From contig NC_134653.1 of the NCBI RefSeq assembly GCF_030463565.1, forward strand, positions 28,209,150 to 28,273,149: a stretch of 64,000 nt of DNA, given 5' to 3'. The position numbers and the translations under genes are program-made. Position 1 is the stretch's first letter. Every line of letters starts with the position of its first letter. Source of the stretch: Pelecanus crispus (Eukaryota; Chordata; Aves; Pelecaniformes; Pelecanidae). Shown here piece after piece: positions 22,601 to 63,598 of this stretch. Below the pieces are notes generated by a model. That model did not search any database, had not been told where the DNA came from, and saw only the letters and a program-made list of their open reading frames with translations.

Positions 22601-22753
22601 GCACGGCTCTGGGCCCGGGACCCGCCCGCAGGCTGAGGAGGGAGGACCGGCACCCCCGGCCCCGCCGCCCCTACCTGGCCGCAGCGGCTCGGTGATGCTC
22701 AGCACCAGGAGGAAGAGGAGGAGGAAGGTGCCGCTGTCCGCCTTGGGCACCAT
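1667..22753 (-). CDS. DGCR2: DGCR2 (integral membrane protein IDD), 5' two coding exons; gene runs off left edge
   Basis: Partial gene read leftwards. Exon 1 coding part is 22753-22675: the ATG has a good context (A at -3, G at +4) and gives a 26-residue start, [10 protein letters not shown] then a leucine-rich signal peptide ending TEPLRP. Exon 2 is 1789-1667 and carries an LDL-receptor class A module with six cysteines at about residues 30, 37, 44, 51, 57 and 66 and the acidic calcium-site motif DESDE at 59-63. The phase fits: one base from exon 1 plus AG from exon 2 makes the Glu codon. Human DGCR2 begins almost identically, with the LDLa module directly after the signal peptide. The family is a single-pass surface protein with LDLa, C-type lectin and VWC-like parts, proposed in cell adhesion; the later parts are not in this window. 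Identification is firm from both exons and from the ESS2/GSC2 neighbourhood. Confidence 0.95.
3450..3471. repeat. A22 mononucleotide run
   Basis: Uninterrupted run of 22 A residues inside DGCR2 intron 1, followed 43 bases later by a C-run. No open frame or transposon body is recognisable on the 5' side, so it is annotated only as a simple repeat. Confidence 0.9.
3514..3529. repeat. C16 mononucleotide run
   Basis: Uninterrupted run of 16 C residues in DGCR2 intron 1. Its length makes it likely to be length-variable and error-prone in assemblies. Confidence 0.9.
11417..11448. repeat. Interrupted A-rich run
   Basis: Fourteen A, two T, then sixteen A within DGCR2 intron 1. Simple repeat with no recognisable element attached. 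Confidence 0.85.
17771..17799. repeat. Short perfect hairpin (10-bp arms, 9-nt loop)
   Basis: GTATCAGACC at 17771-17780 is the exact reverse complement of GGTCTGATAC at 17790-17799. It sits in DGCR2 intron 1. An isolated hairpin this short occurs by chance in tens of kilobases, so no function is claimed. Confidence 0.6.
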
Positions 22754-29996: not shown

Positions 29997-30056
29997 TGAC
30001 ATCATCCGGTAGCTTTATAAAAGCACTGAAAGGTCCTTCCATTGCCTGTGACATCA
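29997..30056 (+). promoter_or_regulatory. TSSK2: Predicted TSSK core promoter: CRE-like sites and TATA box
   Basis: TGACATCA (a one-base variant of the CRE palindrome) occurs at 29997-30004 and again at 30049-30056, flanking a TATAAAA box at 30016-30022. A TATA box here predicts a start site near 30045-30050, giving a 5' UTR of about 150 bases before the kinase ATG. CRE-like sites read by CREM are a known theme in haploid-spermatid genes, which suits a TSSK; the assignment is inference from motif and position. Confidence 0.6.
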
Positions 30057-30197
30057 CACAGCAGCCAGTGCTGGGGTGCCCACCTGCCTGCCACGCCAGT
30101 GCCAGGGCAGCCACCATGGTGCACGGGCACGCCACCTGCCACCACGCATGATGCACACCAGCACCAACTCATGCAGCTCCCCCCCAGCTCTCCCACC

Positions 30198-31163
30198 ATG
30201 GATGATGCTGTGGTGCTTGGAAAGAAAGGCTATAGCCTGAGCAACACACTAGGAGAAGGCTCTTACGGCAAAGTGAAATCTGCCTACTGCGACCGGCTGA
30301 AATGTAACGTAGCTGTCAAGATAATCGACAAGAGGAAAACTCCTCGGGACTTCCTGGAAAGATTTCTCCCCAGGGAAATAGAGGCTTTGAGACGTTTGCG
30401 CCACCCCTCAATCATCAAAACCTATGAGATTTTTGAGACATCAGCTGGGAAAGTGTACATCGTGATGGAGCTGGGGGAAAAGGGAGACCTCCTGGACTAC
30501 ATCAAGATCACAGGAGCTATGAAAGAGGACATTGCTCGCATCAAGTTTCAGCAGTTGGCTTCTGCCATCAAGCATTGCCACGACTCGGACTTCGCTCACA
30601 GGGACCTGAAATGTGAGAACATCCTTCTTGATGAAGAACTCAACATCAAGCTGTCAGACTTCGGCTTTTCCAAATCCTTGTCTCGGGATGAAAACGGAAG
30701 AACTATTCTCAGCAAAACCTTCTGTGGGTCTGCTGCATACGCAGCCCCTGAAGTGCTACAGGGCATTCCTTGTGACCCCAGGATTTCTGACATATGGAGC
30801 CTGGGTGTCATCCTGTATACAATGGTCTACGCTTTAATGCCATTTGACGATTCCAATGTCAGGAAAATGATCTGTGTTCAGAAACAACACAGGATTCCCT
30901 TCCCCAACTCAAAATGCCTGACCGTAGAGTGCAAGGACCTCATTTACCACTTGCTCCAGCCCAATGTGTCTCAGAGGTTGTGCATAGATGAGGTTTTGAA
31001 ACACTCGTGGTTGCAGACTCCGAAATCCACAATCCCTTCACCTATGCCAGCTGCAGAAGAAGGTGAGTGTTCCCAAAACCTGCATGAAGGAAAGCCACAC
31101 AACCAGCAAGCCAAATCCCATTCTGCAGAAGGAGGAGAGGCAAAGGAAACAGGATCCTCTTAA
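30198..31163 (+). CDS. TSSK2: Testis-specific serine/threonine kinase (TSSK1/2 group), single exon
   Basis: Intronless 321-residue kinase starting [12 protein letters not shown], the family's typical start; human TSSK2 starts MDDATVLRKKGY and has 358 residues. All catalytic parts are intact: glycine loop GEGSYGKV (19-26), lysine 41 in VAVKII, Glu60, HRDLKCEN with H134-D136, DFG 154-156, activation-loop Thr174 in SKTFCGS, and APE 183-185. The kinase domain ends near 272 with HSWL; the hydrophilic tail is shorter than in mammals. ATG 30198 has a near-perfect Kozak context (CCACCATGG). The frame stays open upstream to an ATG at 30042, but the TATA box at 30016 would place transcription start after it. 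TSSKs act in post-meiotic germ cells and phosphorylate sperm proteins such as TSKS. Intronless structure and position between DGCR2 and ESS2 match mammalian TSSK2; whether it is strictly TSSK1 or TSSK2 cannot be told without a tree. Confidence 0.92.
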
Positions 31164-38100: not shown

Positions 38101-41100
38101 ACAGTATTTTACTTTGGCAGCTGAATGGATTATTACTGATAATAGAAACAGAAAACTGAAATAAGAAAGACAATCTAACTGTGAATAATAAAGGGCTGAC
38201 GGACAAACAACAGGAACTGTTCTCAGCTGCTCTCCTTGATATTGCTGCTTATGGAAGAGACTGCCAAGAACAGCAATACTTGCACTTAGGGCAATGTTTC
38301 ACAGTCTCAAAGCTTCAGGAAGAGACAGATCCTCAGCAACTACATCAACACTGTTCTTGCGTTACAGATGTGGAAAACACAGGACTGCAAAAAGAAGCAA
38401 TGAGTTGTCACAGGACCCAGGAAACTCAGGCTTAGCTCAGATTTAGATGTGATCACTCCATGCACCTACTATTCAAAATCAAGACCTTTCTGTTCTTATT
38501 CAATATGAGTAATTCAACAGTCTACTCCAATAGCCCCATGCTCAGAGCCAATGAATTCTCATATTTATAGCAGGATTCAAAACCAGAAAGTAAGATAATA
38601 TTCTATTTAATCAAACAAGAAAGAAATACAGTAAAATGGTATTTTCCTGTTGTGTCACTTTGGAAGAGCAGAGATACAGCTGAGCCATTTCCCTACCTGG
38701 GCATACTCCTCTTCTGCACTGTACAGCCAAGCATGCTTGACTTTCTCCTTCTCTTTGGCCACTTCCATGATCTGCTCAAACGAAGCATTATCTTCACTTG
38801 TGTGTTTTGCTAAGAAGCTGTCCAGACTGGGAAGTGCATCTTTTTCTGCTTCTCCTAACAAGAGGAGGGAAGAAGCCTGAGAAAGGTTAATACCTCTCTT
38901 TCTATGAGAGCACTATACATAACTCTTAATCCCTTCTGACAGTGAGCCTTCTACAAACCCACTAATAATTAACATGAAGCTTGGTGGGAAAAAAAAAAAT
39001 ATACATGCAGAATTATTTTTTGGTAGACATATAATCAACTTTCACACAAAACCTTTTATGGCATATATAGCTATTTGTGTTAAAGGGAAGGTGCACAAGT
39101 GGCCAGCTGCTAGCAGACATTTTTAATATACTGCATGAATAGCTCTGCCCCTATGATCTTTGCTTACTTACAGAATTAATTTCAGGTGACACAGGAAAAA
39201 TTTACTGCCTTCATAGAGATCAGCTGAGTTAAGAATTTACACAGCCATAAAGAAACCAATAATTAGGAATTCACACACATGATGTAAAACATTACATCAA
39301 GTTCAACTTCAGAGTGATCATTTTCATCTATTAGAAGGTTAAAGGAAACTGCTTAAACATCTGCTAAATACCCAAAACCCTTACAGGAGACAGAGCTCAC
39401 AAAAGTATTTTCCTGACACTGAAGAATTCAGCTGGAGAAACATCATTCTCCTACCCTCCTCTGCAGCTTTGGTGCCAGCTTTGGATTTATTCCCCACTGG
39501 AAGACCACCCGGATGCACTTCTGGCGTTTCAAATGTGGCTGGAGTAACATCTGTGACAGAAAAAAAAAGGGCTCACATGGTTACCGGAGCACGGAACAGG
39601 ACACTTTGCTGTGACATCTTCCACCACAGTAAGGGTCATGTGCCAAACAAGTCACAGAAGACACATCAAAAGAAGAATTTAATTAAGAAGTTGTAAAAAG
39701 ACTCCAAAATACTCTATTCTGTCCCAACCACCGAACAGGATTATGCTCTCATCTAAGACATTATTTTTCCCCTGCTGGAAAAAATTCATAGGAAAGCCAC
39801 AGCCCAGTATATTTGCCACCTTATCTACAGCTTTAACTAACAGAAGCAAGCAGCAGCGTAACAATCCTAACCTAGGCCAGGGCCAGCACCCAGGAAGGAA
39901 AATCATTTGGTGACACATGCCCTTTGCCACAAGAAAGCCAGTTACCTAAACCCCACCATGAGAGCTCAGCCAGGGACTGGGCTTTAGTATAAGAAACACC
40001 TGAACTTGAAGTGAAAGCAAACATACAACAGGGCATTGTATATCTGCTAGGCCAACCTCTGATAATCACAAGCTTCCAATACCTTCTGTCCCCAACATAG
40101 GAAAGTCTTACACATCTGTAGATGCAACAAGAACCCCATAAACTATAATAAGGATTCAAAACACAGCTTAGAGTTTCTAATAGCATAATATTGCATGTTA
40201 GAGCATGTAACATTCCCTAGGGAGCAGGAACTCAGCAAAAGATGCCTATGAGGAATGGTTATTCAGTAGGTGTTTTTCCAAAATCATTCCCTCAAGAAGA
40301 AGTTATTAGACACCATCAAAGAAAAATTCACCATCAGGTATCAGATGCTGGTTACTGCCCAATTCAGTATACTAATTCCCATGCAAAGTCAATCTTGATT
40401 CTTTAAGATAAACGCTGCCTGCACAAAGTTAGATAAACTAGAGTAGTAATATTAGATATAAAACCCTTATGCCCCAGTGAGCCAGTTCTTACAGGGTGCA
40501 GGTGTGTCCCTCGATGATTTACCCAAGGAGGAACCAAACTTGATAGCAATTTGTCTCATTTTCTCCAAGTCACCGTTTTCTTCAGCCTCCAGATACTCCT
40601 TCTGCGCTCGCAACTTCTCCACATCAGGAAAGAAGTCTCGCTGAATGATTTTCTCTAAACTCTACGAACAGAGAGACAACTGCAAGGCCGCGCTGGGACA
40701 CCTCGGAGTGCGGCTCGGCTCGGGGCCCGCCGCACGCAGTGCTGGGGAAGGACGGCAGCCCACGGGCGCTTCAAGCCGAGGCTGGGCCGGTGGCAGCGCG
40801 CTGACAGCTGTCGCCGCAGAGGTGCAGGAGCCCAAGGGGCGGCCCCAGAGCTGCCTCGTCCCCGGGCCCGCACCGCAGCCGGGATTACAGCGGGCAGCAG
40901 CGGCCGTGGGCGGAGCCGAGCCGGGCAGACCCGAGCCGGGCAGACCCGAGCCGGGCCCCGCCGCGCCGGAAGCCGCTCGGCCCAGGTGCCAGGAGAGCGG
41001 GGCCCCCCGGGCCGGGCCCGGGCCCGGGCCCAGGCCCGCCGGCCTACCTCGATGTAGGCCTCCTCATCCAGGACCTTCTTCGGGCGCCTCGGGGCCGGCG

Positions 41101-42469: not shown

Positions 42470-44458
42470 CTAACAGCTCTCCTCAGAGGGCTTCTTGGTG
42501 CCTTGAAGGATCAGCGCTGAAGCAGATGTCCTCTTCTGATGCCGCCACTTGGCCCGCCGATTTTTAAACCAAACCTAGAAAGTGCAAAACAAGAACAACT
42601 TTTGCATTTCATGTGTTCCTTGCAGGGGAGCAGGCAGTTACACTCCTGGGCTGTACAGCGTAAGCTTTAGGATACTCAATACATTTCCCGATATAAAGGT
42701 TTGATACAAAATGTAATCAGTCCCTCCCCTGCAATCCTGCTCAGATACATGTAAGGGGCACAAGGGAGCTGGGACCCCCCCATGGCAAATTGAGAAGTCA
42801 CACAGATCACATAACTAAGGAATATACACTCGGGTGCAGGGGATGAGCAGAACTGGGCATGTCTGTGTTTGTATAGGTGGATCTAGGAGAGAGAGTGAGT
42901 GAGTTTATGGGACCAGATTCTAGAACAAATCAGCCCATCAGAATTGTTTTATATTCTTCCGTTGCTTGCTACACCTGAACTGTGTTTTGTTGAATACCCA
43001 AGAAAGGTTTTTAAAATGAGGCCCTGGGTCTGCAGCTCCCAGAAAAGTCTCGGATGCCCCAGTCTGTGTTCTCAGGGGGCTGCAGCAAACAGCACCTCAC
43101 CAAGTGGCAGGATCTCACCTCTACCCTCTCCTCCTTCAAGTGAATGCGGTTTGCCAGGTGCTCGCGGGTGATGACATCCGGGTACTGGTTCTGATGGAAA
43201 AGCGTCTCCAGGGCCTGCAGCTGATCCTCGGTGAATATGGTGCGATGCCGGCGTGTCCGGCGCTGGATCTGGTGGAAAGTCTGCAGCTTGCTCGGGCTCC
43301 CCTGGGGACTCTTGCAGACCCTGACCGCCGAATGGAAGAGCTGCATGGGCCAGGGGAACCGGGCATCTGCAGGCGGAGAGGTTACAGCAGCAGCATTAGG
43401 GGTGAGGGGCTGAAACTCCCACCTTGCTCAAGGCAGTGCAGACACAAGTTGCATCCATGCATGTGGCTTGGAAGGAGGCTGCTGGCTGGCTGGCGTGGGT
43501 GACAAGCTGCATGATCACCATGCAAGTGATAGAAGGGCTTAGGGCATCACTTTGGGAGAAGTGTGCAGGTGGGGAGCACTGGTTGGGTTTTCGTTGGTTA
43601 CTTACCAATTGCACTATGGCCAGCTCCAGAAAATGGATGGAAACTCACAGCCCGGCTAGGAGCTGTGTTTCAGTCCTGACATGGGGGATTTCTGAACTTT
43701 CAGGACACTCTTGAACTGCATTTTTAAGGGTTTGCTGCTTTTTTTTTTTTTTTTGCTAGATGTAGCCAAAAATTCTTTTCCTTAAAGAACAAGTGAGGTT
43801 CCCCAGGGCCAGTGTTGTCAGGAAGCACAGGCATAGCTCTGCGCATGGACAGCACGACCATGGGTCCCCACACTCCACAGAGAACTTCCACCCCCAGAAG
43901 CGTCACCCTTTCAAGTGTTTTACAATAAACCAGTAATATATAGCCCCTGCTGCTTTTAAAAATCTGGTAGCATGGCAGGTAAAAGTGCCTGCTCTTAGGA
44001 GTTATGCTGCGAATGGATCCTGCTGCCCCTCGCCGGAGCTGGGGTCTGAGAAGACCACCGTGGCAGCAGGCCAGGCGCTATATTGGCACTCAACGTCCAG
44101 GCTTTCCCCTCCACAAGCCGCACACATGAAACAAATCCCAACACTCACCCAGCCAACTCGGCAAGTCCTGCCGGGAACGAGTGCTTGTGTGAGAACAGCA
44201 GCAGCAGTTGCAGCCTGCCCCTTCCAGCTCTTCCTCCTCCTCCACCTCCTCTTCCTCCTGGAGGGAGCTGGCTGGGATGGCCTCCAGCTCACACAGCCCC
44301 TTGGGTGCGCAGTCCAAGATGCCCTGCAGGCACAGTGGGATCAGGACCTGGGGGCTCTTCTCTGCTGGGCTGGAGAGGATGTCCTCAATGCTGAACGAAC
44401 ATGGCTTCTTGAGGCCTCTCCTGCCGGCATCGGCATCCGACACCGGCTCCGAAGACAT
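42470..44458 (-). CDS. GSC2: GSC2 (goosecoid-2 / goosecoid-like) homeobox repressor, 3 exons
   Basis: Complete minus-strand gene with exons 44458-44149, 43366-43119 and 42574-42470, GT/AG introns and matching phases, giving 220 residues (human GSC2 about 205). An eh1 Groucho-binding motif FSIEDIL lies at 22-28. An acidic run (about 68-79) is followed by a cysteine cluster CNCCCC (83-88). The homeodomain spans about 141-200, from [13 protein letters not shown] to [12 protein letters not shown], with the bicoid-class Lys50 at residue 190; its third helix is split by the last intron, as in other goosecoid genes. The C-terminus [10 protein letters not shown], then KKPSEESC, resembles human GSC2. 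It is a predicted nuclear transcriptional repressor binding TAATCC-type sites. Position next to ESS2 matches the mammalian locus. Confidence 0.95.
42575..43118 (-). other. GSC2: GSC2 intron 2
   Basis: Intron of 544 bases splitting homeodomain helix 3, between Glu and Val of RVEVWFKN. Nothing else is recognised. Confidence 0.85.
43367..44148 (-). other. GSC2: GSC2 intron 1
   Basis: Intron of 782 bases; contains a T-run at about 43739-43754. No further exon is recognised. Confidence 0.8.
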
Positions 44459-48396: not shown

Positions 48397-48639
48397 TGGC
48401 TAATAGGGATGGTGCCTGTGGCGTAGCAGGAGGACCATGCGGGACCAGCCCTCCTTTGATGCAATGAGGCATGGTGGAGAGAGACAACTATTTCACTCTG
48501 AAGCATTTCATTTGGTATTTCAGAGACCTTACAGCCACCAACTCAGGCTGTCCGGTTTCACTCTGTGCTCGTCAGCAAGCACCATCTCCCCGTTTTCAGC
48601 CTTTCTGGGGGGCTCTCTCTCTCCACCGACTATGGGAAC

Positions 48640-49138
48640 AACTTCAGACAATGACCTCAAATACTGTGTCCAGTTTTGGGCCCCTCAGTACAAGACAGAC
48701 ATTGAGGTGCTGGAGCGTGTCCAGAGAAGGGCAACAAGGCTGGTGAAGGGTCTGGAGCACAGGCCTTATGAGGAGCGGCTGAGGGAACTGGGGTTGTTTA
48801 GCCTGGAGAAGAGGAGGCTGAGGGGGGACCTTATCGCTCTCTACAACCACCTGAAAGGAGGGTGTAGTGAGGTGGGTGTTGGTCTCTTCTCCCAAGTAGT
48901 TAGTGATAAGACGAGAGGAAATGGGCTCAAGATGCATCAGGGGAGGTTTAGATTGGATATTAGGAAAAATTTCTTCATGGAAAGAGTAGTCAAGCGTTGG
49001 ACCAGGCTGCCCAGAGAGGTGGTGGAGTCACCATCCCTGGAGGTGTTCAAAAAACGGGTAGACGTGGCACTTTGGGACATGGTTTAGTAGGCATGGTGGT
49101 GTTGGGTTGATGACCTTAGAGGTCCTTGCCAACCTTAA
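48640..49138 (+). mobile_element. CR1 LINE, 3' part of ORF2 plus 3' end
   Basis: About 500 bases whose plus-strand frame reads like the CR1 ORF2 C-terminus: [20 protein letters not shown], then [20 protein letters not shown], later [11 protein letters not shown] and [18 protein letters not shown], ending DMV and stop. A CR1 3' UTR with TTAGAGGTCCTTGCCAACC follows. The open frame extends artificially upstream to 48437. The 5' part of the element (endonuclease, RT core) is absent, the usual CR1 truncation. The frame is intact over this fragment, suggesting moderate age. Confidence 0.9.
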
Positions 49139-49356: not shown

Positions 49357-49454
49357 GGCGTGCTGAAGGCGGCGGGACGAGGCGACCCTCCCCGACCGGC
49401 GACCACCGTCGCCGGTCGGGGAGGGTCGCCTCGTCCCGCCGCCTTCAGCACGCC
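49357..49454. repeat. Perfect inverted repeat, 47-bp arms, 4-nt loop
   Basis: The arm at 49357-49403 is the exact reverse complement of 49408-49454, with CACC between. The arms are GC-rich (start GGCGTGCTGAAGG, inner end CCGACCGGCGAC). It lies directly after the CR1 cluster and about 100 bases before the first likely ATG of the THADA-like gene. It would form a very stable hairpin. Because long-read or amplification fold-backs create such structures, an assembly artefact must be considered. Confidence 0.95.
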
Positions 49455-49557: not shown

Positions 49558-52500
49558 ATGGTGGTGGCTTCGCCGGCCATGGGAGCCGAGCGGGAGGCGC
49601 GGGCCTGCGCTGCCTTCTACGGGGCGCTGGGCATCGCTCAGCCGGTGCTCTCCTGCCTGAGCTGCCTGCGGCAATTCGCGGGGTAAGAGGATGGGCCCCG
49701 GGGCAAGGAGCACCCGGCAGCCCCCGGCCACGGCTCCGTGTCCGCCTCCCCCCCCCCCCCCCCCAACCCCGGGAATCCGCCGGCGCGGATCTCGGCGTCC
49801 CCCGGGTGTGGGTACCCGGTGCGGGTCCCCCGAGCATCCCCCCGGGGGCGGGTCGGGAGGTGGGGAAGGCTTAGCTTGCCCCCCGGCAGGGGGACAGAGC
49901 CACCCGCACTTGCCATCATCCCCTTCCAGCCCGCTCTGCAGCAGCAGAGCAGCAAGATTTTGGGATTTTTGGGCCCTCCTGCCCCCCCCCCAGGCTTGCG
50001 TTTGCCAGAAGCGGCTGGGTTGTGGACTCTGAGGAGTTCCCTTCCCTCGCCCCCCCCCGCCCCGCCATGCAATGCTGAGTGCAGTTGGGAGAGAGGAGCA
50101 TCCCAAGCCGCGGCACCCCAACCCTAACCCCTATCAAGCCAGGGCACCTCTACCCCAATCCAAATCAAGCTAGGGCACCCCAACTCTAATCCCCACCAAG
50201 CCAGAGCACCCCCACCCTAATCCAAATCGAGCTGGGGTACCCCTACTCCAATCCACACTGAACTGGGGCACCCCAATCCTAATCCCCACCAAGATGGGGT
50301 ATCCACACCCCAAACCCCATCAAGCCAGGCTATCCTCACCCCCATCCCTGTCCCATTTCAGGAGTACTGCCAAGAGATGCAAAGACAAGCACCTGGAGGA
50401 GGCTCTCCTGCTGTCGCGGGCGCTGAGTGAGGGTCTGCAGGCGCTGGGCGAGGCAGAGGCACGGCCCCTGCTCCGCTGCATCCTGGCTTTCCAGATGGAG
50501 GCAACCGGCAGCTCCAGCTCCTTCCAGAAACTGGAACAGGTCTGTAATGCAACCGGCTGGGCTGCAGCTTCAGAGCTCTATTAGCCACGAGTGTAAGCGA
50601 TGGTCTTGCCTGGCTCTGCCTGCTGCCGGCACAGCCCCAGCACGGTGCATCCTTACCGGCAAAGGGGCCACGGTGATGCCACAGAGCTCCCCTAAAAGGC
50701 ATTGCAGCTGGTATCTCTCGGGGGTCCAGGCAGACTGGCTGATTCGGGGTGTCTCTCGGCAGATCGTGACCCAGCTGGCGGTGGGGAAAGAAGCCCTGCT
50801 AGCCCAGGAGGTGGGCGCGCTGCTGGCTGGCCTGGCGCCGCAGGGAGAGGTGAGAGCACCCCGGTTGTGTGGTAGCACTGGCTTTCACAGGGGCTTGGCC
50901 AGAGCCCATGTGCGACAGGAACGTCCTGGTTTGAGCTGCCTGGGGTCCTTTGCTTCTCTTCCCACCTTGCTGGGGGCTCCCCCTTGCTTGCAGCCAGCAA
51001 CACATGGCTGCCCCTCACACCAGCCCTTTGCTTATTGCTGGGACAGCTTCTGGCACAGGCAGGACCCTCCTGCCCGAGGCACTGAGCCCCAGCATGTCGT
51101 CACACAGGACAAACTGTCCTTCTGCCTCCGCAGGTGCTGTCTCCTGGGGACCTTCAGTCAGGTCAGTCTCTGCTCCTTCCCCTCTGGGGGCTTCTCCCAG
51201 CCCACACCACCAACGTATGGGACACCTCTTGCCCACCCAGACCGAGTTCTCTGCGCTCGTGGGAGGGAGAGCAGGGATCAGCCAGATCTGTGGGATTTCT
51301 GCAGAGGTCCCAGCAGCACCCAATGGCTCTGCCCACCTGCCTGAGGCAGCTGGAAACTGGACAAGCCAAAGCAACCCCTGCATCCCAGCCCCATTCTTAC
51401 CCCACATACTGGCAGCACAGACCTTGGTTTAACCGGGAGCAGGGCTGGCTGCGGGCACAGTGCCAGGAGGGCCGGGGACTGATGGTGTCCCCTTGCCCGC
51501 AGTGTGCATGTTCATGGAGGAGAGCAGCCTGGGCAGACAGCACTGGCGGCAGAACCTGGCCCCGCTGCTGCAGCGCCTGGCCACCACCTTGCGCTGGGTG
51601 CTGCAGAGCCAGCCTGCGCCCGGCAGCACGTGGGGCTGCCTGGCTGTCAAGGTAAGAGTTGAGTTTCGGACGAGGCGGGAAGGATCAGCCCCTGCAAGGA
51701 CAGGGACATGCTGGAGCCCCCTTCCAGCCAGGCACTGGCAGCGATGTCCAGGAGGGATTGTGGCACACAGCGCCATTTCGAATGGCTGTCCCAGGGGAAT
51801 CGCTGCTTTTTGAGAGGTGAGGGATGCTGACAGCCATGCCCGCGGCCCCCATCCCTTCTCCTCCAGGCCTGCCTCCAGCTCTTCCAGGCACTGCCGAAGG
51901 ACGTGGCCCCTCTAGTGTGGAGCACGGCGGGGAAGAGCGAAGCCCTGCAGAGCCTCTTGGGGCTGCTGCTGGAGGTGGTTTGGGGGAAGGTGCGTACAGC
52001 CCTGGGGAGGGATGGTGCTGCCTGTCCTGAGGGCCAGAGCGCTGCCATCCTTCACGGTTGCTTTCCCCATTCCCTTCCCCAAGGGGAGCCTGCAGAGGCA
52101 GCCCCAACACCTGGGGTGTCCGAGGGACCCTGCGTAGTTGCCCGCGTGGGCATGGAGGGAGGGTTAAATGGGGTCTGCTTTTCAAATGGTGTTTTGAGCT
52201 GTGCCTTTGCCTCCCCTGCGAGTTCAGGCCCTGAACAAGGACACGCGGCTGCTGGCGGGTACGGCCCTGAGCATGCTGGTGAACACGGCCCCCCAGCCTG
52301 AGCATGGGGCCAGCGCCGTGCTGGCCCTCTTCCAGCTCCCCGACCGAGGTGTGTGCTCTGTCCCAAGCCAGGGATGGCCCCTGGAGATAGGGACCGGCAT
52401 GTTTGGGTGCAAGGGGACAGAGGCCAGTGCCACTCATCAGCAGTCCAAGCTGGACTCTGCTGCCATGTCCCGCTCTTGGGGTGCAGGAGCCCCAGCTGCC

Positions 52501-55500
52501 ACCGGCCACCTCCTGCAGTCACTCTGGGATGAGCCAGGGCAGTCCACTCTCAGAGCAGCATTTCGGTTTGCCATCTTCCTGCCATCTAATGCAGCCATTT
52601 CCAACCAGGCACAGGGGAGCTGAAGTTTGGGGAGCTGGTGGTAGAGGCCCCCCCCATCCTGGAGCCAGACGGGCTAGAGAAGCTGGTGCTCACCAGAGGT
52701 TTGCTGACGTGCTGCAAGACGGACATCCTCAGCTGCCAGCTGGAGAGCTTCACCCACAAGGTAGGAGAGCACAAGCCCCGCGGCCAGGGATTTGGAGAGC
52801 ACCTTGTGCAGGGCTGGCAGCTACCGGTAGGGGCTGTGGATCCCCGGGGGACGTAGCCAGGCTGCACTGCTCCACACCAGCAGCTCCACACACCCTGCTG
52901 AGCACGGTGCTTTAGCCAGGAGCTTGCTTTTTCCAAAGACATCTTAGCAGAGATTTCCCTCTCCTGGGGATGGTGAGAAGCCAGGTGGTGCCAAAAGTAG
53001 CCGCCACACAAGTGAAGCGGCAGCAGCATTCACCCCCCGGGCGGAACGCAGCCTCCAGCTCTGCCCATCTGCAGCGTCTTTCCATCCTCAAGAGCTGAGG
53101 ACTTCCAGACAGGGAGTGAAAGCTAGGTTTAAGCTGCTGTAAGAGCAGGAAAACCATGCAGTGCTCTCACATGTCTTATCGTGGGGTTTTCTCACCCTGG
53201 AAAGCCCGTGCCTGCCCGCTCCCTGAGCCAATGTGCTCCCGCAGGCCTGCCTGCTGCTGGACGTGGTCTTTCCCACTGTGTGTGCCCTGACCAAGGAGCA
53301 GAAGGACTGCCGCTACTACTGCTTCCAAGGTAGGAGACGATGACCCTGCCATGGCGGGGGCGTTTTGAAGGATTCACTGCGCTCATGATACACGGAGCCC
53401 CCATGGCACTTCATCTTCTCCTGGGGAAGATGCTTTTCTGGATCTTGGTGGCTGGTTTGGAAAGTGCGATTAATATCTGCTCCAGCCTGATGGACACTAA
53501 CCTTCTCAGGCTCTTGTGTATCTAATGGGCAAACGGCTCCCCTTGCCCACGGGGTCCTTAAGCCCAGCAGTCTGCAACAGCTCTGACGCATGCAAGTGTC
53601 TCGGGCAAGGGCTGCAGCGGTGCTCTCTACTTTTGCAGCCTGCGCCCTGTGGCTGCAGCGCCTGCAGGAGAGCCTGCCTGCCATCTGGCACCTGACGGGG
53701 ACCCACATCCTGGCCCAGGACACCGAGCTCCTCCAGCAGCTCACCCAGCTGGTGTGGGACAACGCCGAGACCCTGGTAAGGCTGGGGTGCTGAAAGCCCA
53801 TGCCATGGCAGCCAGACACAGCCCTTCCTTCACCTGGCTTAGCTGCCCTTCCCCTGCCCATAACACACCCCTGCCTGTTTCGGCTCAATCAAGCAAATAC
53901 AACCCCTTTGCCTGCAGCTGCCTTCCTCGGGCAGGGCAGGGGCACCCATGCTGCAGAGGCCGAGGCACTTGTCACACACGGCCTCTGCAGGGCCATGTCC
54001 CAGTGCTTTGCCTTCTGCACGCAGCACCCATGGGTGCAGTCCCAGCTGGTCCACGCCCTGGCTCATGGGCCATCCCCAGCTCCTAACCTTGTGGTTACCA
54101 GCCAGTACCGAAAGTCCACGGCCACGGGAAAGCAAAGGGTCTTTCCTGAAGTAGTGAGACAGGAGGGGGACCCCAGCCTAACTTCTCCTGCTTGCCGTTT
54201 TTCTCCCCCCAGGTGGAAGGGGTGTCCGAGTTCATCCACAGCTCCTTCCGACTGCTCCTGGAGATCTACCACCTTGAGTGCCAGCACTTCCAGGACCAGG
54301 AGAGACCCCTCTACCAGCAGATGCTGCAGAGGGTGATCTCGATGCCGTGGCAAATCAGAGCCAGATATGTGCCCCTGTGTGCCATCGTCCCCTATATGGG
54401 CAGCCAGCAGGTCAGGAATGTTGGGGGACAGGGAGGCTCGGTTCTGGCTGGCGCTGCTGCCAGGGTGGCACAGCCTCTGTCTGCTGCCTGTCACCTTCCC
54501 CTGCCCAGCTCAGCTTTCCAGCCAGAGGGGCCATTTTAGCATCACCCAAGGGGTAGTATCCGTGGTGGGGTAGTGAGCTGCAGCAACAGTGATAAACCCT
54601 GGGGGACTTCCAGTGGGGAGGGAAGCTTTGCCTGTTGATGCCCACCAAAATCTGACCAAAAGCAGCTTGGGATACCAGAGATGCTCAGCGTCATGGGTGA
54701 CCACAGTGTGGTCTGTACCCAGATCTGTCCCCTGCCATACACAGCCTTCAGCCTGGCAGGAAGATGAGGGTCGTCTGCCTTTCTCCCAGGTGCTGGATGC
54801 CTACCCGGACCTGCCGCAGCACCTCCTGAGCTGCCTCGCCACCAACCACCTGTGTCCCGCAGCTGCCGAGGTCTACAAGGCCCTGGTGCGGCAGCAGTGC
54901 GCCGAGTGGCAGGGTGGGCAGCCGGGTGCGGAGGTGGCTTTGGTGGAGCAGTGGGTGCTGCGCTGGCTGCCCCTGCTCTCCCAGGCGCTCCGCTCCCCCC
55001 TGCCCATCCTGCAGAGCAACACTGCCAACCACCTCCTCGCCTGGACCCTGCGGCAGCTCCCGGCTGCCCAGGCACCACTGGCCACCCAGTTCAGTGGATG
55101 GGACACGGCATCGCTCCGGGCTTGGGTCTTGCTGCTGAAGGTGCAGAAGAGCGTGGCAGGGGCCCTGCCGCTGCAGGGCGAGGCACTGGAGCGGCTCACC
55201 TGCTGCCTAGGTGCCCGCGAGGAGGGCATTCGGCTGGCAGCGCTGGGTCTCCTCTGCTGCAGCCCCAGCACCAACGAGCCCCTCTCGAGCACCGAGGTGC
55301 GGCTGCTGCGGGAGTTCCTGCCCTTCAACCTCAACTGCGACTCCTCCTCATTCCGGCAGCTGCTGCAGGCAGCAGTGAGGAAGGCGCTGGTCCGGCTGCG
55401 GGACAGCTCGCTGGCCCAGCTTCGAGGGAAGGTGCCCCGAGGCACCGAGCCGGGCAAGGGAGCAGGGCAGCTCGCCCAGGCAGTAGGTGAGGCAGCTGAC

Positions 55501-58500
55501 CTGGCACCTCCACCGCAGTCCCTGGGGGAATTGGGAGTGGATGCCCAGCCCAGCATCACTTGCTGCCACGCTCTCTCCCCACAGGCTTTGTGGAGTGGCT
55601 CCTGCAGCTCAGCATCGCCTCACTCAGCCCGGGCTCCAACTACCAGAGGAAGAAGACAGCTCTGCTCCTCCTGGCCGCTGTTTTGGAGACCTGCACGGAC
55701 ACCTGGAGCCCCGACAAGAAGAAAGGCCAGCCCCCGCGTGAGTACGGGCAGCCCGCCTAGAGCATCCCACCTTGGCTGTGGGGGTGCTCCCTGCCGGCCC
55801 CAGCCCACCGCCCCTTGTTCCCACCACAGGGACCATGGCCACGCTGCTTAGCTATGCCAGGCAGAGCGGCTGCTGGGACTTCTTCTCTCAGCCCAATTTG
55901 TTGGCGCTGCTGAGCTGCTTGCAGGACAGCACTAATGAGGTGATCCTTACTGGTTGTAAAGCCACCTGCCTCGGCCCCGAGTGGGCTCAGAGGGGAAGGG
56001 TGGTGGGCTTCCCCTCCTGCCCTGCCCCAGCTGCTTTCCCCTCCATCTTGTGTCCCAATTCCCCCCACCTCTCCTGTCTTGACAGATCAGAGACTTGGCC
56101 TCAGAGCTGCTTGTCCACTACTTCCCAGCCACGTTCCCCGAGCCCATTGCCCTCGCTCTCTTCCAGCTGGCCCAGGATGCCCTGGGCAGCCCACGAGTGC
56201 AGGAGGCTGAAGCCGGAGCCGTGCTGATGAAGACCATCCTGCAGAAGTATGAGCTCCCAGCCTCCCCCTCCCCACAGTGGCACAGCAGCCCCCGAGAGCA
56301 CATCGGCAGCACCGGTGTCTCGCCAGAGGCTGTGTTTACAACTCAGGGCAGCGATGGCTTGGGTTTGAAATAGCCTTGCAGTGGGGAGCTGGGTAGGGTT
56401 GGGGGTGCAGGACCTCAAGCCGGGGGAGGAAGGAGCCACAACAGCATGAGTTGGGCAGAAAACTCCCTCATCCTCACGGCAGCCTTTGCTCCTTCCCCCA
56501 GGTCAGACAGCGGCACCATGAAGAGCCTGGCCCTGGAGGCCGAAGCAGCCCCCACGCTGCCCAACCGAGGCCTCTGCTTCGCTCAGCACCTTCTCCACAT
56601 GCTGCAAGCCCAGTATGCTGCGGCGTGCCGGGACCTGCTGCAGGCAGCAGCCACTGCACCGATGCACGGTACATCCCCAGCCTGGCAGGGCAGCAAGCAG
56701 CTCCCGTGGCAGGGCTCCTCCCCAGGAGCTTGGAGCAGGCAGGAATTGTATAGGCAGGACTGAGGCCACAACTCAGTGCTGATGCCACATCCTTGCCTCA
56801 GTTTCCCTGTCTTGCTGCTCCACCTGCCCAGCGTGCCCTTCACCTAGGGGCCCTGCTTGCTCCCCTGCTCATGAGCCATTTCAGCAGCAGGCTCAGGCAG
56901 GAGAGCGGGGGCTGCGCTGGCAACCGCTGTGACTGGGGGTGGGTGTTTGTGCAGGAGCCATCACAGCCCTGCGGAGGTGCCTGCTCCAGGTGCCGGAGGT
57001 GGCCGCCTCCATGCGGGCAGCGGAGTCAGTGCAGAGCTGGCAGGAGCTCCTCACCTGCCTGGTGACCACAGCAAGAGACATCACTTCCTTCCTCCTGGGC
57101 ACTCTGCAGAGCCAGCAAGGCCCCGGCGCTGATGAACAAGGTGAGCGTGTCCAGCCCTGGGAACCACTGACACCTCCATCACAGCCATCCTTGACCCAGC
57201 AGTCCTCCAGCCTGTGGGGAAGGCAGTTGCTTTGCACTCACTGCCTCTAGCAGGGGACAGCAGTGGGGCCAGGCAGGGAAGGTTGGCCCAGGAGTGAGAG
57301 GTCCAGAGGAGGACACCCAGTTAAGGATGCTCCAGGTGTTGGGCAGAGGACCCTGGAAACACAGGAGCAGAACAGCTAGTGCCTGGTGTTGGGTCCCTTT
57401 CTCAACTGCACATGAGAACAGCAGCAAAAGTAGAGGCAAAAAAACTTCCAGAAGCAGCGAGGCACTGGCCAGATTGAATTTGCTGTGAGAGCAGGGGCTG
57501 GCAGAGCCCTTGCAGCAATGGCTCAGAAAGAGCAGTGGGGCAAAGCACAACTGCAGTCCTGAGCAGAACACGTTGCAGGACAGGAGCCACTGCCATTTGT
57601 GCAGACTCTGAACAGGGGACAGCAGATACCCCACCCCCCAGCAGCAGCATTCCCCTCACTCTGCCCCACACAGCCCCACTCAGACCAGGCTTCTTCCTTT
57701 CACAGCTGCTGCCCCATCGTTTGCAGACATGGGGAATGCCATCGGCTCCCTCATCATGCTGGGGAAAGGCCAGGGGCAGCAGGAGGACGAGGACTCAGTC
57801 CTGCTGTCAGAAGAGCACAGCCTGATCCTGACCTGCTGCTGGGTATCAGTGAAGGTAGGCACCCCTCCCCACAGCACCAGGGAGGGGGACACCCCAGCAC
57901 AGCACCCACCGCCCACCCCACCCCAGCAGCTGGGTTCTCCAGCTGCCCTTGGGGCACTTATCCTCCCTGGGGACAAAGAAGGGGGATCTCTGCCCTTACC
58001 TTGGAGCTGCCACAGGCCATCCTCACCCTCTGCCAGAGAAGATGCAACCACCACCCTCCCCAAAAGCAGCCACCTCCCTGCCTGCCCTTATGCAGCCCAG
58101 CTGGTTCCCAGGCACTGACAGACTCCAGCTGCAGCAGAGCCAGGCTCCCTGGCTTGCAGCCCTGTGACTGCCCGTCATGGCTCCTTTCCGACAGCCACCC
58201 ATCCCGGCTTCTCCTCTCCGGTGGCTGCCTGGAAAAAGGCCATCTTTGCCATGCGTGCCTTGAATCTGTCTGGGAAACCACCGTGCTGCTGAGCCTGCGT
58301 GTGCTCATGGGCATCCCACCGGCCATGCTGCCTGACAGCACCAGCAACCAAGAGCACCCGTGCTGGGGGGGCGACGGCAGCGCTCGCTGTGCTCCCCTGC
58401 GGCAGCGCTGGCGGGGCAGGACAGGAACGGGGCACGACAAGAACAGGGCAGCCCCACTGCCAGTCCCCGTGACCTTCTGCTTCTTCCCAGGAGATAGGAC

Positions 58501-61500
58501 TGCTCTTGGGGGGCTTGGTCGAGCTGCTGCTGGCCCCAGCGCTGCCGGTCGGATTGGGGCCCCTCCTGTCACTCCCCACCCTGCAGACAGCCGCAAGGGT
58601 GTTCCAGGAAATCCTGCTGCGGTGCCGGCACTGGGTAAGACCGTGTCCCCCCTGGGGTAGCTTGGCCCCTCGCCCCCCCTCTGGCCCCATCCCTGCCCCA
58701 GGCCAACAGCTGGGGGCTCTCGCCAGCATGCCGGGAGGCCAAGTGTAACAGGGCAGCACCTGCTCTGGAGCAGGACACAGGACATGTCTGGGATCCTGGT
58801 GTCAAACCCTGTCATGTCCCCACACCATCATGTCTTCCTGCTTTCTCCTTCCCCTTTGCAAAGAGGTTTCTGGGGGTTGGGGTGGCTGGTGGGTGCAGCC
58901 TTGGGGGTGTGGAGGGCCTGACCTAGGGCCTCTGCCCTAGGGAGCAGTGGAGGGCTGCAGTATGGGCTTCACCAAATTTTGCGCCACTCTGTTGAACCAC
59001 CCGGACACGGAGCTGCAGGCAATCCCACAGACCATGCTGGAGCAGGTACCACACTTGTTCTGTCCCACATTCCCCCTGTGCCCTGGGGAGGCCCAGGGCC
59101 ATGTCCCTGTGTCCCCCCACCCTGGGGGTAGCACCCGCCTGGCAGCTGGGATGCTGCAGTGTGGGGTTGGTGCAGCCGGTGCCCTCCCCTGCAGAGCAGC
59201 TGCAGGCTCCAGCCAGCAGGTTTCCAGCCATATCTTGGGTGGGTTTGTTCCTCAGGGCTTAGAAGCACTGAGCGGACCCCGGAGCAGCTCTATCACGCGC
59301 CGCGCTGCCGGCTTCCCTATGCTCTTCCTCTGCATCGTCAGTGGGGAGGCCCCGGCGCAGGCACGGCCGCTGCTGACTCGCTGCGTCCAGACACTGCTGG
59401 CCTTGGCCACCACGGCCCTGCCGCAGGACTGGGACCAGACCCTCGACCTCCCACAGGTGAGCATGGCAGGCACTGAGCTCCTGGCTGCTGTAGCCCATTT
59501 GGGGACAGGGTGATCTGCACAAGGTCCCCTAAAGGGACCCAAGCCGGGTACCCCAGCACAAGGCTGTGCTACTGCAGAGACCTTGGGGTGAGCAAAAAAT
59601 GGCAGCCCTGGCTCTGCTGCCCATCCCAGCAGCCCGAGAGCTGATGGCCCCTTGGCTCCCCCATCTCTTCCCACCATCTTCCCTCTGCACGGGAGCGTGA
59701 GCCCCCTCCCCACACAGTGCTGCTGAGCCCTGCGCGCTCTCCCCAGGTGTGTGCCTTCCATGTGCTGCAGACGCTGGTCCGTGGCGCAGGGCTGGGTGGC
59801 GCGCTGCTGCGGCACGCCACGCCAATGGTGGCCCTGGCGCTGCGGGGCCTGGGCTCACCATGCTGGGCCATGAGGAACGCGGCCATCCAGCTCTTCAGTA
59901 AGTACCGAGGGGGAGAGGTCAGAGATCCCTGCGGGACCAATGCAGCCCCCGGGGTTCGAAGCCTGGCCGGGGCGAAGTGTGGTGGGCTGGGCAGGGGTAG
60001 AGGAGACCTGACGCTGCTTTCTGCTCTGTCCCTGCAGGTGCCCTCACATCCCGGCTGCTGGGCCAGCAGCGGAGCCGTGGGGAGGGCTGCCCGGCGGAGG
60101 GGGTGAGCCTGCAAGCCTTCCTGGGGCAGCACCCCCAGCTGGGCGCCGTGCTGCTGGGGGAGCTGGGGGAGGCCACTGGGCCCGCGCTGGGGGGGCCCCG
60201 CCTGCACCCTGCACTCCATGCCATCCTCACCCTCCTGGCCCAGCTGCAGCCCGGTGCCGACGATGGCCCCAGCAGGTGAGGGGACAGCAGGGATGCTCTG
60301 CCCCTGCCAAGGGTTCCTGCAGCCAGAGGTGGTCCTGCAGTGCTGGGGCTGGCCCTGGCTCTCGGGGGGGTTTTGCTCTGGCTGGAGCATCACCGCACAG
60401 TGCCCTTTTTGCTCCACAGCCCCTCTGCTCGCTTCCTGGAGCCGCTGCTGGGGCTGGCAGGGAGCCCCATCTACGCCGTGCGAGCGATGGCCGCCAAGGC
60501 GCTGGTGCCGGTCGTCCCGCCGCCCCGGCGCCAGGGGCTCCTCCTGCAGCTGGCCCGGCAGCTCCCCACTGCACCCGGACTGGTCCGCTCACACAACACC
60601 ATCCACGGGCGCCTGCTGCAGATGCGGGCACTGCTGGCCCCCGCCCCGGGCACCAGTGGGTGAGTGGTCGCAAGCCAGCCCACTGCCCCGGTAGTTGCTC
60701 TGTGCCGAAATGCAGCTTTTTGGCTGAAAAGCAGCACCCGCCCTTGTGCTGTGGACCCCATGGTGAGGCTCCACATCTCTCCGCAGGCTGTCGGCCGAGG
60801 CACTGCGCCCCGTGGCTCTGCAGCTGGAGGTGCGGGGCTGGTTGCTCACCCCTGCCCAGCGCTGCCCACTTGTCCGTGACACCTTCCTCCAGGTCCTCGC
60901 CCTCCTGCCTGCATCCCTTAGCCACAGCTTCACCCGGAGCATCCGCGACACTGTCAGCACTGAGCTGGGCAGCCTCTCGGCAGGTGGAAAGCTAGGATGT
61001 GCCGAGCTGCAGGTACCACTTGCTGCCGGGAAAATCACAGCCGTGGCCTCCCTGATGGCGAGGCCAGCAGTGGGAGGTGGGGACCCCTGTGCTCAGGAAG
61101 GCACACACCACACTTGAGGCCGAGTGTTGGAAAGGGGATCCTGGTTTTCCTCCAGGTGGGCTCGGCCATCCTCCACCAAACCATGGCCTGCTTCATGTGC
61201 AGCGAGGCAGCCCGCTGGCAGACAGCGAGCAGATTGGTGCCGTCTGCTCACTTGTCCGTCAGCCGAATCCTGACATCCAGCTTGCCGTCCTGAACTGGGT
61301 GATCACCGGGGAGGGAGGAACATGCAAGGAGCTGGAGAAGGCTCTCAGGCTGACGCTGCTGGTATGACAAGGCTCAAAAGTCACCGAGTAAAGCAGAGGG
61401 TCCCCCACGCACCATGCAGACAGGATGCTGGGTGCTCACTGAGAAGCATGGTGCTCCCTGGGCAGAAGGAGCACGGGTGCGGGGTGCTTGCCCAATTGTG

Positions 61501-63598
61501 CTGAGGTCGGCACCCCGTGGTGCTGGTGCCACTAACCGTGTACCTTCTTTCCCGTTGTCAACTAGGAGAGCTTGGGGTCGGTGCTGCGAGAGAGAAGGGA
61601 CAAAGAGTTCCTGAGATTGTACCTTGAGGCTTTGCTGCATCTTTACAGAGACCCCTCGTCGTGGTCCCAGGAAGCTTCCCGTAAGCTCCAGGGCTCCTCG
61701 GCAGCATGCCTGGAGATGCTGCTGCACATGGTGGAGGCTGAGTGTCCTGGCCCTGACCTCCTCTTCCAGGCGCTGTGTGCCACCAGCCTGCTGCTCACCT
61801 GCCGGTAGGTCCCCGGCGCTGCCAGGGGGCTCTGCCTGACCCCTTCAGGAGATTTTTCCTTAGTCCTTGCTGGAAACAGAGCCACAAGTTCTCGCCTGTA
61901 AATGACAGCCGGCTTTGTGCTTGGGTCCTGTGGTCTCAGGGCAGCTTGTGGCCTTTGGACCCCCAGACGGAGCCGGTAGGTGTGCCTGAATTCCCTCTCC
62001 TTCCCCGGCCTCTGACAGGTTTGAGGACGAGGACAGCACCCTGGTCGAGCGATGGTGCACGGCACTGGAGGAGTGCAGCCGGTCTGCTTCATTCGAGGTG
62101 CTGCGGCTGGCGGCTGCCCGCTCCCTGCAGACGGCGGGTGCCGATGTGGTGCAGCGATCCCTGCGCGCTGCCTGTCCCTCGCTCGTTCCCGTGGCTCTGC
62201 GGTAGGTCCTTGCAGGAGCAGCACTGCCCACAGCCCCAGGGTGTTGCAGGTTAATAGGCTGACCCTGCAAAAGGTGATATCCCCTGCGAAAAATTCAAGG
62301 GCATTAAAGAAAACCCCAATCATTAAAAAATCACTAGCACCCAAGAGCTTGCAGCCTACAAAAAATTTGTGGGTGGCATTTTAATAGAAGCAGGCAGTCC
62401 CTTATGAGTAATAAACTGCATTGATGGGTCCCCTCGATCCCCGTCACAGTCCCTGCCCTCCCAAGCAGTGAGCCCTTGGGTGGTGGCTGTGCCTTTCACA
62501 ACCCCGGAGAAAAGTCCGTCGGGGAAGTGTTGGCCTGGAGGGGGTCTCATCCTTCCCTGACCCTCCAGGCAGGCGGGGGATGCTCTGGGGAGTGCAGCGG
62601 CTTTCCCTTCTCTTCCCTTTCCCCAGGCTGATAAACGTGGGCATTCACCTTCTGCAAGATGAGGAGCGGGAGGTCCGGCATGAGGCCTCAGGTTTCGCCA
62701 GCCTCCTGCGGCAGGACCCTGGTGAGCCCCTCCAAGACAGCTGCGTTTTTGTGCAAGACAATGTGGGCCTCCTGGGCCTCCTGCAGCTCCTCCTGGCAGA
62801 GTTTGGGGAGCACCCCGAAACCTTCAACTTGCTGCTGCAGCATCTCCCCATCCTAGATCTCAGGGGCATCATGGAGGAGCTGGAGGCCAACAAGTGAGTT
62901 GCCAGACCCCTGGGCTGGGTACAAGGGAGCGTGGGGGGCCATGGGGCCGGCCCTGGCTTCACCTGCACCTCGGTTTTCCCCCACCAGAGCTGCCAGCCTG
63001 TACAAGGAGGACGAACCCAACGTTTTTGCAGAGCCGGCCGTCCTGGCACGGCAGCTGCTCCCCGTCCTGCTGCAGCTCCTAGAGAAGGCGCCTGCTGGCA
63101 GCCAGCTCCATGCCTCAGCTCTGCGCTGGCTGGCAGCCGCGGGCCCCAGTGTCCTGTGCGACCTGCGGTACTGCAAGCACCGCTGGAGCCAAGGTACGGC
63201 GCGGGGGGAGCGGGGTGGCACAAAGGCCCAAGGACAGGCAAGCTGGTGTCCTCATCCCCTGGGCTGGCTCTGCCTGGGAGGGTGTCCCTGCCATGCTCAC
63301 GGCTCTTTCGCCCACTCTCTCCGCAGAGACCGCCGCCCGCTGGGGGATGAAGGCGCTGGGCTGTGCCAAGCTGCACGCGGCCGTGGCCGTGCTGCTGGTG
63401 AGGGCTCGGCTGGTGGCACAGGTGCTGCAGGTGCTGGGGGAAAGTGCCGCCACCGTGCCGGGGCTGGGCTGCAGTGCCCGGCAGCTGGAGCAGGAGCTTC
63501 AGCTGGTGCAGGGGCTGCTGGCACAGCATGGGCTGGCCCCCACGCTGAGCCAGGGCGATGTGCTGGGGGAGCCGGGACCACCGTCCGGGGCTGCCTGA
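49558..63598 (+). CDS. THADA-like: THADA/Trm732-family HEAT-repeat protein (THADA paralogue), 31 exons
   Basis: Exons: 49558-49682, 50362-50539, 50763-50849, 51134-51161, 51503-51651, 51867-51989, 52228-52348, 52609-52760, 53245-53329, 53639-53775, 54213-54410, 54790-55486, 55585-55737, 55830-55939, 56086-56246, 56502-56668, 56955-57140, 57706-57854, 58491-58634, 58941-59045, 59256-59456, 59747-59897, 60038-60275, 60420-60659, 60787-61012, 61156-61361, 61566-61804, 62019-62201, 62627-62893, 62988-63193, 63327-63598. All introns are GT/AG and phases agree except in exon 26, which is one base short. Predicted length is about 1,894 residues (human THADA 1,953). Family marks: GLLTCCKTDIL, EGVSEFIHSSFRLLLEIY, FLPFNLNCDSSSFRQLLQAA, and a DUF2428 region (about residues 1050-1360) with TRRAAGFP, SPCWAMRNAAIQLFSALTSR, SPIYAVRAMAAKALVPVV and NTIHGRLLQM. 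THADA and yeast Trm732 partner the FTSJ1/Trm7 enzyme for 2'-O-methylation of tRNA position 32; that role here is inferred. Classical THADA lies elsewhere, so this is probably a paralogue. The start is uncertain: ATG 49579 has a better context, and the frame is open back to 49360. Confidence 0.88.
49683..50361 (+). other. THADA-like: THADA-like intron 1 with minisatellite
   Basis: Intron of about 680 bases, GC-rich. It contains a C-run at about 49750-49763, and the right half is a tandem repeat array annotated separately. The open frames on both strands here are composition effects. Confidence 0.85.
50113..50343 (+). repeat. Minisatellite, 31-bp unit, about 7 copies
   Basis: Units begin GCACCCCAACCCTAAT and end ATCAAGCCAGG, each 30-32 bases. 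Alternating units share variants (TCCAAATC versus TCCCCACC), hinting at a 62-bp higher-order unit. It lies wholly within intron 1 of the THADA-like gene, close to the exon 2 acceptor. Confidence 0.85.
57141..57705 (+). other. THADA-like: THADA-like intron 17
   Basis: Intron of 565 bases between the GADEQ exon and the AAAPSFADMGN exon. No repeat or extra exon is recognised. Confidence 0.8.
57855..58490 (+). other. THADA-like: THADA-like intron 18
   Basis: Intron of 636 bases between the CCWVSVK exon and the EIGLLLGGLVELL exon. Open frames inside are shadows of GC-rich sequence. Confidence 0.8.

Follow-up and report, generated by a model that had tools for sequence, protein, structure and literature searches.

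Genes and features of the GSC2 locus

The window analysed in the present study is a stretch of 64,000 nucleotides of the Pelecanus crispus genome (C11:28209150-28273149), and all positions below are in window numbering. It holds a THADA-family gene on the plus strand at 49558-63598, hereafter the window gene, which sits between GSC2 and SLC25A1 in the conserved DGCR2-TSSK-ESS2-GSC2-SLC25A1-CLTCL1 locus. The original prediction had placed the gene beside GSC2, and this position was found again, with the GSC2 exons on one side and SLC25A1-like peptides next along. The first exons of DGCR2 and ESS2 and the name TSSK are presumptive identifications, and the SLC25A1-like and CLTCL1-like peptides are presumed to be such from signature words (5 of the 13 neighbour words matched).

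near 22753, minus strand: presumed first exon of DGCR2 (by eye, no Pfam match)
30042-31160, plus strand: open reading frame of a presumed TSSK-like kinase, flanked by the first exons of DGCR2 and ESS2 (Pfam Pkinase)
near 41071, minus strand: presumed first exon of ESS2 (by eye, no Pfam match)
43116-43277 and 42473-42577, minus strand: GSC2 exons (Pfam Homeodomain)
72608 and 74670 (beyond the window), minus strand: presumed SLC25A1-like peptides (signature words)
98662 (beyond the window), minus strand: presumed CLTCL1-like peptide (signature words)

Six open reading frames of the window were compared with Pfam, and four of them (the GSC2 first exon, ESS2, DGCR2 and a repeat frame) gave no match. 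The order is that of human 22q11, where GSC2 adjoins SLC25A1, with the window gene as one gene more.

The exons of the window gene come from an ab initio splice-and-codon model, which was trained on the window gene itself and changed by hand at two places, namely the acceptor of exon 3 and exon 25. Further sources are given in brackets.

49558..49682 (+): exon 1, start codon
50362..50539 (+): exon 2
50763..50849 (+): exon 3 (acceptor picked by hand)
51134..51161 (+): exon 4, 28 nt, the least certain exon of the model
51503..51651 (+): exon 5
51867..51989 (+): exon 6
52228..52348 (+): exon 7
52615..52760 (+): exon 8
53245..53329 (+): exon 9
53639..53775 (+): exon 10
54213..54410 (+): exon 11
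54790..55486 (+): exon 12, 697 nt, start of the TPR_Trm732 match (Pfam)
55585..55737 (+): exon 13
55830..55939 (+): exon 14
56086..56246 (+): exon 15
56502..56668 (+): exon 16
56955..57140 (+): exon 17, start of the DUF2428 match (Pfam)
57727..57854 (+): exon 18
58491..58634 (+): exon 19, bulk of motif 1, LLRCRHW (motif alignment)
58941..59045 (+): exon 20
59256..59456 (+): exon 21, motif 2, ITRRAAGFP (motif alignment; the genome scan also recovered this exon with a score above the Pfam cut-off)
59747..59897 (+): exon 22; the preceding intron is the single core intron exactly at a position of the C3 THADA gene (intron comparison)
60038..60275 (+): exon 23, inside the TPR_Trm732_C match (Pfam)
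60420..60659 (+): exon 24, motif 3, NTIHGRLL (motif alignment)
60787..61012 (+): exon 25 (hand-made join of two pieces that the model had predicted within a single open frame)
61203..61361 (+): exon 26, 5' border uncertain
61566..61804 (+): exon 27
62019..62201 (+): exon 28
62627..62893 (+): exon 29
62988..63193 (+): exon 30
63327..63598 (+): exon 31, stop codon
63995..64000 (+): AATAAA, possible polyadenylation signal (sequence only)

The 31 exons join into 5610 nt in one frame with the sole stop at the end, and encode 1869 amino acids; GT-AG borders are present in all 30 introns. Together with the matches to three Pfam family models described below, this bears out the prediction of 31 phase-consistent exons for a THADA-family protein, and its length is indeed close to that of human THADA, for which PMC2430699 gives 1954 amino acids, with fewer exons here (31 against 38). 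Since there are 30 introns, the window gene is not a processed copy. It is a real and apparently intact second THADA-family gene.

Relationship to THADA and age of the split

In hmmscan, the window protein scored 187.6 bits for DUF2428 (PF10350), 117.3 for TPR_Trm732_C (PF25151) and 89.9 for TPR_Trm732 (PF25150), with a cut-off of 27 bits for each of these three THADA/Trm732 models. These matches, together with motifs 1 to 3 (see below), make it a member of the THADA/Trm732 family; its likeness to yeast Trm732, which is named in the matched models, is known through those models only. Human THADA is able to substitute for Trm732 in yeast (PMC12145424). The DUF2428-type motifs quoted in the original prediction were recovered (RRAAGFP, and SPCWAMRN at residues 1180-1187). 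The sole PDB match at E <= 0.001 was human THADA (8y2o chain A; E 3e-65, 248 of 924 aligned residues identical). A search with residues 1-368 alone did not recover THADA even with the E limit set at 1, and no alignment to human THADA was obtained beyond residue 1401, so the likeness is detectable over the core only. One HEAT repeat exceeded its Pfam cut-off (25.4 against 23.5 bits), and the prediction for exon 12, the only exon folded, was helical but, with a mean pLDDT of 45.8, of insufficient quality to be used in a fold search. The window protein may be a THADA-like HEAT-repeat solenoid. The segment from DUF2428 to TPR_C is basic in the window protein, human THADA and C3 THADA (pI 9.3, 8.9 and 8.8, respectively), and the entire window protein is slightly acidic (pI 6.1).

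A separate THADA gene is present in the same genome, as had been predicted. Scanning of the whole 1.31-Gb genome with PF10350 gave five matches among 11 candidates scored, four at 40.515-40.534 Mb of C3 (minus strand) and one in the window on C11. Pieces of human THADA match in order along 200 kb of C3; of the 18 matches above 28 bits there, 14 have 62-91% identity, three have 52-59% and one has 30% over non-matching sequence. The core of C3 THADA was taken from a spliced alignment in which the start of one exon had to be corrected manually, the program's exon at that place being false. Over 894 gap-free core columns, human and C3 THADA are identical at 634 (70.9%), whereas the window protein is identical to human THADA at 243 (27.2%) and to C3 THADA at 237 (26.5%). 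The closest gene of this genome to human THADA is therefore the C3 gene and not the window gene, whose identity, as well as its introns (1 of 13 exactly coincident), is not that of an orthologue of vertebrate THADA. In the matching segments, DUF2428 scores 176.6 bits for the window protein against 261.4 for C3 THADA. The two proteins, in both of which this was tested, have DUF2428 and TPR_Trm732_C in the same order, and the window protein resembles human (8y2o chain A) and C3 THADA in motifs 1 to 3 and in length. In contrast, its core introns lie mostly elsewhere and its ends cannot be aligned with THADA; furthermore, the window gene occupies 14 kb, compared with approximately 97 kb for just the core of C3 THADA. 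A search of the genome with the 909-aa core found no further copies, all 13 matches (18 candidates scored) being at the window locus, and the window gene is single-copy as far as seen. THADA had been known earlier from chicken, with 59% protein similarity to dog THADA (PMC2430699).

One possible explanation of the window gene would be that it is the sole THADA of the genome, moved by translocation, but the separate gene on C3 rules this out, and we regard it as practically impossible. Another would be that the gene was duplicated in the bird or sauropsid lineage and then evolved very fast. The far greater divergence of the window protein (27% identity to human THADA, against 71% for C3 THADA) could be read in this way, and without an outgroup identity alone leaves fast evolution possible. 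However, an origin well within the bird line would give changes in common with C3 THADA, and none are seen in excess: human and C3 THADA differ at 260 columns, and there the window protein agrees with human at 31 and with C3 at 25, so that the share of C3 is 25 of 56 matches (95% interval 31-59%), without sign of changes common to the bird lineage. This comparison comprises three sequences and is unrooted, with human and C3 THADA as the THADA side. As to whether a tree would place the window gene inside orthologous THADA, the comparison covers these three sequences, and within them it argues against such nesting (31 against 25). The introns, which lie mostly at other places, also argue against a bird or sauropsid duplication, and together with the 31/25 split they make a recent origin in birds very unlikely. 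Because of the separate THADA on C3 and this split, the window gene is, on the sequence evidence, a paralogue of THADA and not a relocated THADA, in agreement with the old duplication proposed originally; the split appears to predate the common ancestor of mammals and birds.

Intron positions were compared within the two core segments that contain introns in both genes (13 in the window gene, 15 in C3 THADA), using the ab initio model on the one side and one hand-set acceptor on the other. Exact coincidence was observed for one of the 13 (P 0.082); within 3 nt there were three coincidences (random mean 0.58, P 0.019), and within 6 nt still three (P 0.086). These values are weak evidence for a few old introns common to both genes among mostly different ones. 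The window gene has introns after residues 393 and 459, where C3 THADA is intronless for 175 codons. In two small controls, the best other match to the GSC2 homeodomain (C6, 68%), which we take to be GSC, ends at the GSC2 splice point, and a 74-aa exon of CLTCL1 has a single other match (C12, 86%), presumably CLTC, which spans the exon from end to end. GSC/GSC2 and CLTC/CLTCL1 are vertebrate ohnologue pairs. Since the introns of the window gene and C3 THADA mostly disagree, the split probably predates vertebrates and the vertebrate genome duplications, as far as an unrooted comparison with two small controls can indicate.

Motifs, contacts and possible function

In structure 8y2o, as described in PMC12145424, the tRNA lies inside the hollow THADA cylinder and FTSJ1 is on top. 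Positions of motifs 1 to 3 were taken from the same paper, with an offset of 28 residues for the 8y2o chain. Motif 1 reads LLQSRHRG in human and C3 THADA and LLRCRHWG in the window protein; motif 2 reads ATRRSAGIP in the former two and ITRRAAGFP in the latter; motif 3 is NHIHGTLL in human, NNIHGTLL in C3 THADA and NTIHGRLL in the window protein. Over the three motifs, 17 of 25 residues of the window protein equal those of human THADA; outside the motifs the count is 226 of 869 (Fisher P 1.8e-5). When only columns identical in human and C3 THADA are considered, the figures are 17/24 against 195/610 (P 2e-4). The motif-1 contacts appear in the text of PMC12145424 as Arg1105 and His1106, and later as His1105; with the offset of 28 they correspond to 1104 and 1105. 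Eight human tRNA contacts fall in the aligned core, and C3 THADA has all of them, whereas the window protein has four (Q680, W1054, R1104 and H1105); position 1106 is R in human and C3 THADA and W in the window protein. Nine FTSJ1 contacts were compared: three are retained in the window protein (P1358, R1363 and N1401), with K replacing R1368, and C3 THADA keeps six of the eight that can be aligned. Arg199 and Lys92 are not covered by the aligned core. Among contacts that are not part of the motifs, 4 of 14 are retained in the window protein, which is its background rate, and this argues against an unchanged FTSJ1/tRNA role. According to PMC12145424, conservation of the residues that bind tRNA is not high even when human, yeast and worm THADA are compared, so the loss of tRNA contacts says little.

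The reading that we favour, with some confidence, is that of a diverged THADA paralogue at the GSC2-SLC25A1 locus, split off before the mammal-bird ancestor and perhaps still a THADA-like adaptor, since the family motifs are kept while single human contacts are not. For the adaptor function taken by itself, the chances appear about evenly balanced. Such an adaptor would bind tRNA or another RNA, bring it to a 2'-O-methyltransferase of the FTSJ1 type and select substrates of its own. An RNA-handling family scaffold near a methyltransferase, whose partners or substrates have changed, would fit these observations, and its role may be with FTSJ1 or new. It is also possible, if more doubtful, that the same ancient paralogue was freed from tRNA methylation and is now a scaffold for something else. 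The background-level retention of non-motif contacts, nearly all of which C3 THADA keeps where they can be aligned, would suit a freed scaffold, as would N- and C-terminal parts without detectable likeness to human THADA; on the other hand, motifs 1 to 3 are held well above background, and the variability of tRNA-binding residues among known THADA proteins weakens the argument from lost contacts. A decaying pseudogene, at least in P. crispus, seems highly improbable. Its one foothold is the 5' border of exon 26, the weak point of the gene model, where the acceptor at 61157 looks stronger but shifts the frame and soon meets a stop; however, the acceptor at 61203 is phase-consistent, the frame is open for 5610 nt over 31 exons with GT-AG in every intron, and chicken has an annotated gene, glossed as THADA, in the matching megabase.

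If the adaptor reading is extended, early animals may have had two THADA-type adaptors, split before vertebrates. Birds, and perhaps other tetrapods, would have retained the second one between GSC2 and SLC25A1, and mammals would have lost it; it would bring other RNAs than THADA does to a methyltransferase of the FTSJ1 type, and bird tRNA 2'-O-methylation would thus use three adaptors (THADA, WDR6 and the window protein). We consider this scenario speculative and on balance unlikely. FTSJ1 has many short exons, and for this reason we assume that none of the six matches, at four loci, of the genome-wide FtsJ family scan is FTSJ1, which was not located by that scan. THADA helps to modify transfer RNAs, and a second, deeply split member offers a natural comparison for its FTSJ1- and tRNA-binding parts.

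The chicken gene and minor features

The chicken gene LOC416924 is glossed as THADA in PMC9951459, and a table of PMC7402339 lists it in the 8.0-9.0 Mb window of chromosome 15 with DGCR2 and GSC2. Furthermore, the legend of a 2022 tetrapod synteny figure names THADA alongside genes of the DGCR2, GSC2 locus. From its location and name rather than its sequence, LOC416924 is very probably the orthologue of the window gene. Since it shares a megabase with GSC2 and DGCR2, and the synteny legend names THADA, chicken probably has the window gene too and the gene is not confined to P. crispus. The original claim thus stands as regards an old retained copy, but the copy is probably not peculiar to the species. 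Annotators seem to have the gene listed already, under the name THADA. In the literature searched, we found no description of a THADA paralogue or of a second, deeply split THADA gene: the FTSJ1-THADA paper (PMC12145424) treats THADA as one gene and the word 'paralog' is absent from its text, and one paper uses the term 'THADA-like' for cryo-EM particles. Bird studies that name 'THADA' from LOC416924 may not concern THADA at all; in the chicken cold-adaptation study (PMC9951459), the THADA link would concern the paralogue if LOC416924 is the orthologue.

No tRNAs or Rfam families were found in the 64-kb window. At 61157-61210, the acceptor 46 bases before 61203 opens a short plausible frame ending in a stop; this is either an unused site or a frame change in the assembly. 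Just before the window gene, at 48437-49084, there is an open frame of 216 amino acids with no Pfam match, which to us looks like the tail of an avian CR1 LINE. The first intron contains a minisatellite (50104-50329) with a 31-base unit in 7.3 copies, which can also be read with units of 62 or 93. A perfect inverted repeat of two 47-nt arms with 4 nt between them occupies 49357-49454; the repeat ends approximately 100 bases upstream of the start codon, and the 130 nt around it fold as RNA at about -130 kcal/mol. Either the promoter or 5' UTR contains a genuine palindrome here, or the repeat is a fold-back of the assembly.
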